Shown: in pieces, positions 13,710 to 14,533 of the stretch
Position numbering within the stretch: the first letter of the stretch is position 1
How the letters are laid out: every line of letters starts with the position of its first letter
Assembly (NCBI RefSeq): GCF_900108025.1
Contig: NZ_FNUS01000001.1
Location: 558,001-622,000, forward strand
From: Halpernia humi
GTDB taxonomy: Bacteria > Bacteroidota > Bacteroidia > Flavobacteriales > Weeksellaceae
Reading direction: 5' to 3'
Length of the DNA: 64,000 nucleotides
Translations under genes and position numbers: made by a program
The notes under the pieces: model-generated
The model's database searches: none
Told to the model about the DNA's origin: nothing
Seen by the model: only the letters and a program-made list of their open reading frames with translations

Positions 13710-13731
13710 AGAGAACCAAAATTGATTCTCT
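13710..13731 (-). terminator. Terminator hairpin copy 1 (distal)
   Basis: AGAGAATCAATTTTGGTTCTCT followed on the minus strand by a T tract. This is the leftmost of three copies of the tRNA-fMet terminator and differs from the others by one base in the loop side (AATTG versus AACTG). Confidence 0.75.
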
Positions 13732-13739
13732 TTATTTAG

Positions 13740-13794
13740 TAGTCCGCCTCTGGCGGAACTCGAACGTGCGTCCGCCTTTGGCGGATATGAGCCC
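13740..13794 (-). pseudogene. tRNA-fMet 3' half remnant A with two palindrome replacements
   Basis: On the minus strand the segment keeps GGGCTCATA (anticodon stem and loop), CGCACGTTCGAGT (T arm) and CTA (3' end) of the intact tRNA at 14461-14533. The two 10-base stretches between them are replaced by 15-base palindromes (13771-13785 TCCGCCTTTGGCGGA and 13743-13757 TCCGCCTCTGGCGGA). There is no 5' half, so it cannot be a working tRNA. Confidence 0.85.
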
Positions 13795-13802
13795 ACTATA
13801 AT

Positions 13803-14054
13803 TTATTTTTTTAAAATTAATTTTAAATAATTCCTACCGTGTCCACTTTTTAAATATTTTTCGCGGTTTAAGGCTTCTATTTTACTTTCGAAAAATTCAA
13901 CATAAACCACAATCCAAGGTCTGAATTTTTTTGTAAATCCTTTGTTAGAAAAATTATTATGAGAATAAAATCTTTCAATTAAACTTGATGTAAATCCAGT
14001 GTAATATTTATCATACTTCTCAGAATAAAGAACATAAACTACAAATTCGTTCAT
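13803..14054 (-). CDS. GIY-YIG nuclease-family protein (intact copy)
   Basis: An 83-residue single-domain GIY-YIG protein of the UPF0213/YhbQ type. VVYVLYS and KYYTGFT are the two beta strands of the motif, IERFYSHN contains the conserved Arg and His, and EALNREKYLKSGHGRNYLK carries the conserved Glu and basic C-terminus. This fold cuts DNA in UvrC and in homing endonucleases, but activity of the small stand-alone family is not established. The gene begins 17 bases downstream (minus strand) of the terminator hairpin at 14071-14092. Its TAA stop is followed at once by the tRNA-fMet remnant. Residence inside a tandem unit tied to a tRNA suggests a selfish element. Confidence 0.85.
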   Translation of the reverse strand: MNEFVVYVLYSEKYDKYYTGFTSSLIERFYSHNNFSNKGFTKKFRPWIVVYVEFFESKIEALNREKYLKSGHGRNYLKLILKK

Positions 14055-14070
14055 AATTTTAATGAAAAAA

Positions 14071-14092
14071 AGAGAACCAAAACTGATTCTCT
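14071..14092 (-). terminator. Terminator hairpin copy 2
   Basis: AGAGAATCAGTTTTGGTTCTCT followed by a run of seven T on the minus strand, identical to the tRNA-fMet terminator at 14431-14452. Confidence 0.8.
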
Positions 14093-14100
14093 TTATTTAG

Positions 14101-14155
14101 TAGTCCGCCTTTGGCGGAACTCGAACGTGCGTCCGCCTTTGGCGGATATGAGCCC
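14101..14155 (-). pseudogene. tRNA-fMet 3' half remnant B with two palindrome replacements
   Basis: Offset by 361 bases from remnant A and of the same structure. The palindromes TCCGCCTTTGGCGGA sit at 14104-14118 and 14132-14146. The retained tRNA parts are 14101-14103, 14119-14131 and 14147-14155. The 5' half is absent. Confidence 0.85.
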
Positions 14156-14161
14156 ACTATA

Positions 14162-14414
14162 ATTAATTTTTTTAAAATTAATTTTAAATAATTCCTACCG
14201 TGTCCACTTTTTAAATATTTTTCGCGGTTTAAAGCTTCTATTTTACTTTCGAAAAATTCAACATAAACCACAATCCAAGGTCTGATTTTTTTTGTAAATC
14301 CTTTATTAGAAAATTGTTATGAGAATAAAATCTTTCAATTAAACTTGATGTAAATCCAGTGTAATATTTATCATACTTCTCAGAATAAAGAACATAAACT
14401 ACAAATTCGTTCAT
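14162..14414 (-). pseudogene. GIY-YIG nuclease-family gene, degenerate copy
   Basis: The second copy of the 83-codon gene at 13803-14054, starting from the equivalent ATG at 14414. Compared with the intact copy it has lost one base in the run near 14305-14316, which shifts the frame at about residue 33. It has also lost the stop codon (TAA became TTA), so the downstream part would read on through the tRNA remnant to 14059. The rest of the DNA is almost unchanged, which makes the inactivation recent. It is expected to yield only a truncated peptide. Confidence 0.85.
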
Positions 14415-14430
14415 AATTTTAATGAAAAAA

Positions 14431-14452
14431 AGAGAACCAAAACTGATTCTCT
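14431..14452 (-). terminator. tRNA-fMet terminator
   Basis: AGAGAATCAGTTTTGGTTCTCT with seven T residues after it on the minus strand, beginning eight bases past the tRNA 3' end. Confidence 0.85.
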
Positions 14453-14460
14453 TTATTTAG

Positions 14461-14533
14461 TAGCGGGGACACGACTCGAACGTGCGACCTCCGGGTTATG
14501 AGCCCGACGAGCTACCTACTGCTCTACCCCGCG
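14461..14533 (-). tRNA. Initiator tRNA-fMet (CAT)
   Basis: A 73-base cloverleaf on the minus strand: acceptor CGCGGGG/CCCCGCT, D stem GAGC/GCTC, anticodon arm TCGGG-CTCATAA-CCCGG, variable AGGTC, T arm GCACG-TTCGAGT-CGTGT and discriminator A. The three GC pairs in the anticodon stem and the unpaired position 1 (C1 opposite U72) mark it as the initiator. CCA is not encoded. It has a near-consensus promoter 11 bases upstream and a hairpin terminator downstream. Two damaged copies of its 3' half follow in the array to the left. Confidence 0.95.

Follow-up and report, generated by a model that had tools for sequence, protein, structure and literature searches.

The 3′ ends of transfer RNA (tRNA) genes serve as integration sites, and an intact tRNA 3′ half is the usual target of integrases. 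Integrative elements that target tRNA genes, such as phages and integrative and conjugative elements, carry a tRNA part that rebuilds the gene and leave a tRNA fragment at their far end. Homing endonucleases usually, though not by definition, carry a DNA-binding region besides their catalytic domain, while RAYTs, the enzymes linked to repetitive extragenic palindromic (REP) sequences, are tyrosine (HUH) enzymes. Among GIY-YIG proteins, SLX1 is a DNA-repair nuclease with extra domains and the role of UPF0213 is not established; to our knowledge, neither has been described as a mobile gene with tRNA remnants. SegB, a GIY-YIG homing endonuclease whose gene lies beside tRNA genes of phages, is reported to multiply the tRNA-segB segment in tandem via homologous recombination (PMC13096335). 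Here we describe a locus in a 64,000-nt stretch of Halpernia humi DNA (the window), in which two tandem units of about 360 bp, each with a GIY-YIG gene, lie inside the gene for initiator tRNA-fMet, element and host tRNA all being on the minus strand. At this locus, a minimal homing-type element of about 360 bp has probably colonised a tRNA-fMet gene; it would spread by cutting, homologous repair and tandem growth. Apparently, it represents a very small, undescribed kind of selfish element living on tRNA genes.

The window holds a single tRNA gene, called tRNA-Met(cat) by ARAGORN, which is also the top Rfam match within positions 13000-15500 (59 bits). Downstream of this intact initiator tRNA, the two units appear as direct repeats of 249 and 179 nt with spacings of 361 and 360 and identities of 98% and 93%. 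The repeats and ARAGORN agree with the original prediction, made from the sequence alone, of an intact initiator tRNA followed by two GIY-YIG/tRNA-fragment units of 361 and 360 bp. In the direction of transcription, each unit consists of a terminator, a GIY-YIG open reading frame (ORF) that starts a few bases past it, and a tRNA-fMet 3′ remnant (Table 1). The prediction also gave each unit a GIY-YIG gene. This is true without reservation only of distal unit 2, whose copy alone is intact (83 aa); the tRNA-proximal copy, in unit 1, is broken, having suffered a frameshift and lost its stop codon, and its frame at 14238-14414 matches PF01541 (E 6.4e-6) over profile positions 2-41 of 78 only. All ORFs of at least 40 aa in the units are GIY-YIG frames, one of them reading through into the remnant, with no integrase gene among them, and at E <= 0.001 the unit proteins matched PF01541 only, with no tyrosine (HUH) transposase. 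ARAGORN reports the tRNA-fMet as uninterrupted, with no group I intron within it.

The remnants start at GGGCTCATA, in the anticodon arm. The intact tRNA 3′ part reads GGGCTCATA-ACCCGGAGGT-CGCACGTTCGAGT-CGTGTCCCCG-CTA, and in the remnants blocks 2 and 4 have each given way to TCCGCC-N3-GGCGGA, a 15-bp palindrome that stands twice per remnant, behind the anticodon and behind the T loop. What had been predicted as damaged tRNA 3′ halves are real remnants, but not simply damaged ones, since a palindrome replaces two blocks.

Relatives of the window's genome reveal the same site without the element. We located the orthologous site through a flanking gene, which we take to be of the Sua5/YciO/YrdC family; among 30 loci with this gene, the 19 from the same family were inspected for tRNA-fMet and units, and 10 of these 19 have tRNA-fMet beside the flanking gene. 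The sole same-genus genome seen (G006) has an empty site, with a tRNA identical at 74/74 positions, a similar promoter side and no GIY-YIG unit. Among the loci in the window's orientation, the window (L117) carries two units, five (L118 from G006, L119, L120, L123 and L124) are without a GIY match, and one (L126) has two or more GIY-less remnants; L121, at a contig end, is left unassigned. Two loci with tRNA-fMet in the opposite orientation (L127 and L128) both carry units. The original prediction had named an array fixed in all relatives as a reason to abandon the idea of a tRNA-targeting element; the array is not fixed, as G006 has the same tRNA-fMet without a unit and other family members have none or GIY-less remnants. 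At one of the sites without a GIY match (L120, from G020), we also observed three tandem copies of tRNA-Met(cat).

The terminators indicate how the element sits in the gene. The terminator behind the window's last remnant resembles that behind the G006 tRNA. Similarly, G008 has two tRNA-fMet genes, of which the second is occupied while the corresponding gene of the same-genus G146 is not, and the terminator behind the G008 remnant reads like the unoccupied G146 one except for a few bases by the tRNA end. From these likenesses we conclude that the element brings a new 3′ half and terminator, and that the old ones are displaced. More generally, in 31 of 43 testable 3′-type loci the 35 nt that follow the intact tRNA appear again after the remnant (score >=15), compared to 0/43 for the control. 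The units lie inside the tRNA gene. Since the element supplies a second 3′ half and terminator, a functional tRNA survives, and the displaced half, which bears the palindromes, stands behind the ORF. The prediction that the unit rebuilds the 3′ end and terminator was right about the rebuilding and reversed the order: the new half precedes the ORF and the old half follows it. The switch point inside the G008 terminator may, judging from its sequence, be a trace of homologous repair.

Table 1. Features of the occupied tRNA-fMet locus and its flank, in window positions.
Feature	Position	Strand	Basis
Intact initiator tRNA-fMet gene, the element's site	14460..14533	-	ARAGORN, Rfam; 74/74 identical in G006 empty allele
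Terminator hairpin and T-run 3′ of intact tRNA	14424..14453	-	Sequence; recurs behind remnant 1
Unit 1 GIY-YIG gene, frameshifted, no stop	14164..14414	-	ORF list, PF01541
tRNA-fMet 3′ remnant 1, with two palindromes	14100..14155	-	Sequence, repeats
Palindrome TCCGCCAAAGGCGGA replacing 3′ anticodon stem and variable loop (remnant 1)	14132..14146	-	
Second palindrome, replacing 3′ T-stem and acceptor strand (remnant 1)	14104..14118	-	
Terminator copy 3′ of remnant 1	14064..14093	-	Sequence, repeats
Unit 2 GIY-YIG gene, intact, 83 aa	13803..14054	-	PF01541 7.3e-16; AlphaFold2
tRNA-fMet 3′ remnant 2, palindromes 13771-13785 and 13743-13757	13739..13794	-	Sequence
Last terminator, like native one of empty allele	13704..13732	-	Comparison with G006
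Flanking gene outside element, used to locate orthologous site	14624..15235	+	ORF list

Having established the layout of this locus, we considered how widely it recurs. In the same family, 127 of 197 genomes match the 83-aa protein at E <= 0.001, and across the phylum a profile built from 18 relatives has matches at E <= 1e-8 in 191 of 296 genomes, one of which holds at least 19 (copy numbers per genome in this search are lower bounds). In the phylum of a Kaiserbacteria genome, presumably Patescibacteria, 103 of 145 genomes match at E <= 1e-10; 20 of 29 loci there lie within 250 bp of a same-strand tRNA, and the ORF precedes the tRNA in 15 of these 20. We collected 170 ORF arrays from the family, the phylum and named genomes, mainly well-scoring matches rather than a random sample (set 1, 102 loci giving 100 arrays; set 2, 69 loci and 70 arrays). 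Dropped from set 1 were L081 and L086, with UvrC-like frames of 534 and 545 aa, and L047, with no profile match.

A same-strand intact tRNA lies within 250 bp in 133 of the 170 arrays, upstream in 113 (at 38-70 bp in 86) and downstream in 20, one of which (L088, called as 'Stop(tta)') is a false ARAGORN call inside a remnant whose tRNA is really upstream and was left as called in counts, tree and nearest-protein test. Homologues scattered at random positions, which the original prediction had said would defeat it, are thus mostly not what is found; together with the empty site in G006, these linkage counts lend good support to the insertion into a tRNA gene and the tandem duplication that it proposed. 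The linked tRNAs include initiator and elongator Met, putative Ile(CAU), Arg, Asp, Asn, Val, Ala, Ser, Pro, Cys, Phe and Glu. For 111 arrays with an upstream tRNA, excluding those too near the end of the locus, a remnant of at least 15 matched nt occurs in the 160 nt behind the last ORF in 83, compared to 2/111 control stretches. Two or more units are present in 50 of the 170 arrays, and three or more in 19; the first figure is a recount by position, as the raw 55 arrays with at least two GIY fragments included frameshift-split genes. In an array at tRNA-Ala (L028), almost the entire GIY gene is missing from several repeat units, and these short units are apparently non-autonomous, amplified deletion derivatives. 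Behind a tRNA-Leu(cag) (L223, G443:C1:120508-122308), we observed five palindrome units at a 450-bp spacing, the three inspected each preceding an apparent GIY ORF start. In tblastn searches with the 83-aa protein, 5 weak phage records (E 2e-4 to 1e-3) and 11 weak plasmid records were found.

A mirror layout also exists, with the intact tRNA 3′ of the ORF in 19 arrays (the 20 counted by script minus the false call at L088). Of 19 such ORFs inspected, one (L015) was spurious; in the remaining 18, a tRNA part of 14-79 matched nt stands before the ORF, often with a palindrome. At mirror locus L197, CCTGCCTGCCGGCAGGCAGG lies between GGATA and GAGCA with no tRNA sequence lost, and the window's genome itself holds a mirror copy at tRNA-Arg(tcg) (L001).

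The clades of the protein correspond largely to the identity of the linked tRNA. A tree of 121 proteins requires 22 changes of tRNA label, compared to 77.9 when labels are shuffled, and none of 200 shuffles was as low, a count to which near-copies within arrays contribute. For 51 of 138 labelled arrays, the closest protein from another family is linked to the same tRNA (shuffled mean 13.6, maximum 30). In both analyses, L032, L071, L080 and L106, which have no intact tRNA, were labelled by eye from fragments; the 'tRNA-Gln' of L015, a false ARAGORN call inside a remnant, was counted as Met on the tree.

The 83-aa protein matches PF01541 with 58.7 bits (cut-off 22.6; E 7.3e-16), the Pfam domain covering residues 5-74, and NCBIfam gave no family for it at E <= 0.001. 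Residues Y7, Y18, G20, R28, H32 and E65 are invariant in 18 sequences, and we take these Y, Y-x-G, R, H and E positions to fill the GIY-YIG catalytic roles. The AlphaFold2 model (mean predicted local distance difference test 90, predicted template modelling score 0.79) shows a bare GIY-YIG fold. By sequence, the nearest solved relatives are UPF0213 (1ywl 1.4e-14, 1zg2 1.5e-14) and SLX1 (7cq2 7.4e-7). Fold matches, with middling Z of 6 to 7, were found to At-HIGLE, SLX1 (6seh: Z 7.0, root-mean-square deviation 3.2, 80 aligned), I-TevI (1mk0: Z 6.6, deviation 3.7, 76 aligned), a UvrC domain and UPF0213. The ratio of non-synonymous to synonymous substitution rates (dN/dS) has a median of 0.10 and is below 0.5 in 21/21 non-overlapping pairs, 4 of which come from proteins without a tRNA; purifying selection acts on the GIY-YIG ORF, some copies of which are nevertheless broken.

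Palindromes are a recurrent feature of the remnants. Behind the last ORF, arms of at least 7 occur in 72/111 arrays compared to 12/111 control stretches, and arms of at least 6 in 87/111 compared to 35/111. In Arg(tct), Val and Ala remnants, the palindrome occupies the former position of the anticodon arm. When segments were excised by their tRNA flanks alone, with no palindrome demanded, 275 of 300 outer arm positions were complementary across 50 distinct segments, a count that includes two mis-anchored segments (L190 and L195), two that are one base too long (L025 and L162) and two intact anticodon arms (L173 and L197). Swapping partners within tRNA groups lowers the pairing little, to an average of 238.7/300, the arms being very alike; swaps reach the observed pairing in six of seven groups, and Arg(tct) alone beats every shuffle (83 vs at most 79). 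Because only this group exceeds all shuffles, the palindrome is supported chiefly by differences between groups, together with a few changes within them (TCCGCC/TTCGCC in Met, TCCCGA/TTCCGA in Arg(tct), TCTCGTC/TCTCGGC in Asp). These comparisons suggest that the self-complementarity of the palindrome itself is kept while its letters differ between elements.

We considered the tRNA palindrome as an independently dispersed, REP-like repeat and rejected this. The 3.1-Mb genome has 9 sites of TCCGCC-N3-GGCGGA, of which 4 fall in this locus, and the 5 extra-locus sites of TCCGCCNNNGGCGGA belong to other contexts: three lie in another dispersed repeat, one in an rRNA-like and one in a riboswitch-like context, which from their sequence we take to be 23S rRNA and the vicinity of a SAM riboswitch. 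At L052, L053 and L055 in the same genome, a longer dispersed repeat is centred on TCCGCC-N3-GGCGGA and seems to have no relation to the tRNA units. Across 20 selected genomes, CCTGCCTGCC-N2-CAGGCAGG and TCCCGA-N4-TCGGGA are mostly rare, the exceptions being G218 (15) and G378 (63 forward sites), and palindrome counts, compared by eye, do not visibly track GIY copy number. At L226 and L230, TCCCGA-N4-TCGGGA palindromes stand mid-way in a different repeat, of the type ATTGC..GCAATC.

Related GIY-YIG ORFs are associated with inverted repeats of other kinds. In the window's genome, a GIY-YIG ORF at C2:100259-100480 lies between the copies of a 27-bp exact inverted repeat (G000:C2:100148-100557; L004 and L307). 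Part of this repeat, GTCATTCCGNNGGAATC, has 27 sites in the genome compared to 0 for its reversed control, including seven tight inverted pairs without space for an ORF. At L101, L107, L109, L111, L112, L113 and L116, related ORFs are accompanied by inverted GTCATTGCGAGGA / GACGAAGCAATCT repeats, exact over 13-57 bp. Measured against 108 tRNA-linked ORFs (median 9, maximum 26), only the 27-bp and 57-bp cases stand out by length; the others are marked by the shared GTCATTGCGAGGA / GACGAAGCAATCT. Two further GIY-YIG ORFs (L066 and L073) apparently lie within other genes, with 13-bp inverted repeats (ACCCTGTTAGATA and TCCTGTCAAATAA) near both ends, and one in a Kaiserbacteria genome (L248) apparently lies near the start of a 16S rRNA gene, identified by eye, with ATGCCACACCT/AGGTGTGGCAT inverted repeats flanking it.

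In its sequence, the C2 repeat family resembles REP doublets forming hairpins (REPINs) or miniature inverted-repeat transposable elements, with a GIY-YIG gene in the place of the RAYT, and this likeness is the ground for a reading in which mobility is directed by hairpins. In its broadest form, which we offer tentatively and somewhat doubt, small stand-alone GIY-YIG proteins of this family would be hairpin-directed mobility nucleases, comparable to RAYTs, and would mobilise palindromic DNA in two ways: as tRNA-homing elements, bound by clade to one or a few tRNAs, and as REPIN-like inverted-repeat elements with scattered GIY-less copies. If so, the two kinds together would make up a large class of minimal selfish elements that has been overlooked in Bacteroidota and Patescibacteria.

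Given these results, we propose a homing-type cycle for the tRNA element. The nuclease presumably cuts its cognate tRNA gene in or near the anticodon arm, and it is this cutting of tRNA-gene DNA that would drive the spread. With the rebuilt tRNA upstream and the remnant downstream, the element has the build of a homing gene flanked by two arms of its target. A break in an empty tRNA gene would be repaired from an occupied copy, in which these flanking parts provide the homology, and this would yield the junctions seen. The target being still present in the rebuilt tRNA, it could be cut again, and misaligned repair on the remnant would add a unit and so give rise to a tandem array, much as is reported for SegB in phages. 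With less confidence, we suggest that the palindrome, as a hairpin or cruciform, may serve as a decoy shielding the remnant, or may offer the nuclease a second substrate; by analogy, an SLX1-like preference for branched DNA would tie the palindrome to the missing DNA-binding domain.

A number of observations weigh against this proposal. The 83 aa hold no DNA-binding region beyond the catalytic domain, with structural matches spanning model residues 1-82, and neither of the relatives nearest by sequence among solved structures, UPF0213 and SLX1, is a homing enzyme. Occupied and empty alleles have identical tRNAs, so the usual protection in homing, a broken target, is missing; occasional self-cutting might be tolerated. 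Within 250 bp, 24 of the 170 arrays have no intact tRNA, and a further 13 are at a contig or locus edge; five of the 24 have a same-strand tRNA 305-642 bp off and four (L032, L071, L080 and L106) adjoin tRNA fragments. Fewer than 15 nt of remnant were found in 28 of 111 arrays. The nearest protein from another family is at a different tRNA in 87 of 138 arrays, these mismatches comprising 24 Arg(tct)-Val, 15 initiator-elongator Met and 48 other pairs; the first two are pairs of tRNAs with common sequence stretches. To these points may be added the small drop in palindrome pairing on swapping partners and the dN/dS pairs from proteins without a tRNA. Promoter duplication was also tried as a rule for the mirror layout and rejected, being present in 2/11 cases only.

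Other explanations account for parts of these observations. A structure-specific, SLX1-like nuclease could act on the palindrome by a REP/RAYT-like route, with tRNA genes as hairpin-rich landing sites. The complementary arms with letters that differ between tRNA groups would fit such a route, as would SLX1 and UPF0213 as nearest solved relatives and the sister clade with inverted copies of other repeats, including the 27-bp case with its 27 core sites in the window's genome. We nevertheless consider it rather unlikely, given the modest covariation within groups, a tRNA palindrome that is not dispersed alone in the window's genome, palindrome counts that do not visibly follow GIY copy number, and a junction (G008) that looks like homologous replacement. 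An RNA-level system, in which the nuclease cuts its cognate tRNA and a remnant transcript with a substitute hairpin acts as decoy or antidote, would agree with the match of clades to tRNA identity and with palindromes at the anticodon arm position in Arg(tct), Val and Ala remnants. Such a system would have no need of a site in the tRNA gene, a duplicated terminator, absence in a close relative or tandem arrays, and many remnants, the window's included, are without the tRNA 5′ part and cannot fold as a tRNA; we find it improbable.

Near-identical tandem units and the existence of GIY-less ones (L028 and L126) would also be expected had a GIY-YIG gene been captured beside a tRNA once and multiplied by unequal crossing-over between tRNA repeats, its protein inactive in the process. 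That the same layout occurs at many tRNA isotypes and in another phylum, that clades largely follow tRNAs and that the ORF is under purifying selection make such passive accretion very improbable. Finally, the unit alters the sequence behind the tRNA and could be retained as a guard that occupies the attachment site and blocks the integrases of larger elements; the intact tRNA 3′ half, however, persists and is partly duplicated, a close relative lacks the unit and some ORF copies are broken, and we give this idea hardly any credence. The homing-type cycle thus remains our preferred reading.

At 13000-15500, Rfam lists the tRNA and one sub-threshold small RNA match, and no intron. The latter match (Spy1786666, 14896-14961, minus strand; 31.8 bits, gathering 64) lies within the flanking gene and is probably due to chance. 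Two adjoining, similar, large and secreted-looking ORFs, presumably M13 family peptidases, stand in tandem at 15331-17454 and 17794-19863.

If our reading is right, two widely different bacterial groups harbour very small mobile parasites of essential tRNA genes that spare these genes and have only one gene of their own, of about 80 codons; one of the groups, the phylum of the Kaiserbacteria genome, has genomes of 0.5-2 Mb. Such elements would offer a simple system in which a domain of about 80 residues chooses one tRNA gene among dozens, a model for an element that tolerates an uncut target beside it, and an origin for tRNA pseudogenes and tandem arrays. The palindromes in most remnants are a concrete, testable puzzle. 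We found no description of such tRNA-gene elements in the literature searched, which did not cover preprints and many journals.

Two hallmarks of homing genes were seen here: presence and absence at one site (two units compared to none in G006) and adjacency to the presumed target (133/170). By analogy, the element would work like free-standing GIY-YIG homing genes, strict membership hinging on cutting, which we infer. It shares with SegB, which is free-standing in T-even phages, a GIY-YIG gene beside a tRNA and tandem copies; SegB belongs to phage genomes, and the available part of that report mentions neither a palindromic tRNA remnant nor isotype-following clades (PMC13096335). The window element, in contrast, is an 83-aa catalytic domain on chromosomes, with five weak phage matches by tblastn. 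UPF0213 and SLX1 are the closest solved relatives of its protein by sequence and, at middling Z, among the best by fold. With I-TevI and intron-borne GIY-YIG homing enzymes it has the catalytic fold in common, and its insertion in the anticodon region recalls tRNA introns, but it has no intron, leaves the tRNA intact and carries nothing beyond the catalytic domain. The small nuclease gene with short palindromes is reminiscent of REP/RAYT systems, from which the GIY-YIG domain and the undispersed tRNA palindrome (9 sites in 3.1 Mb) set it apart. Like tRNA-targeting integrative elements, it has a rebuilt tRNA and a far-end fragment; unlike them, it has no integrase, measures 360 bp and joins the tRNA in the anticodon arm, not at the 3′ end.

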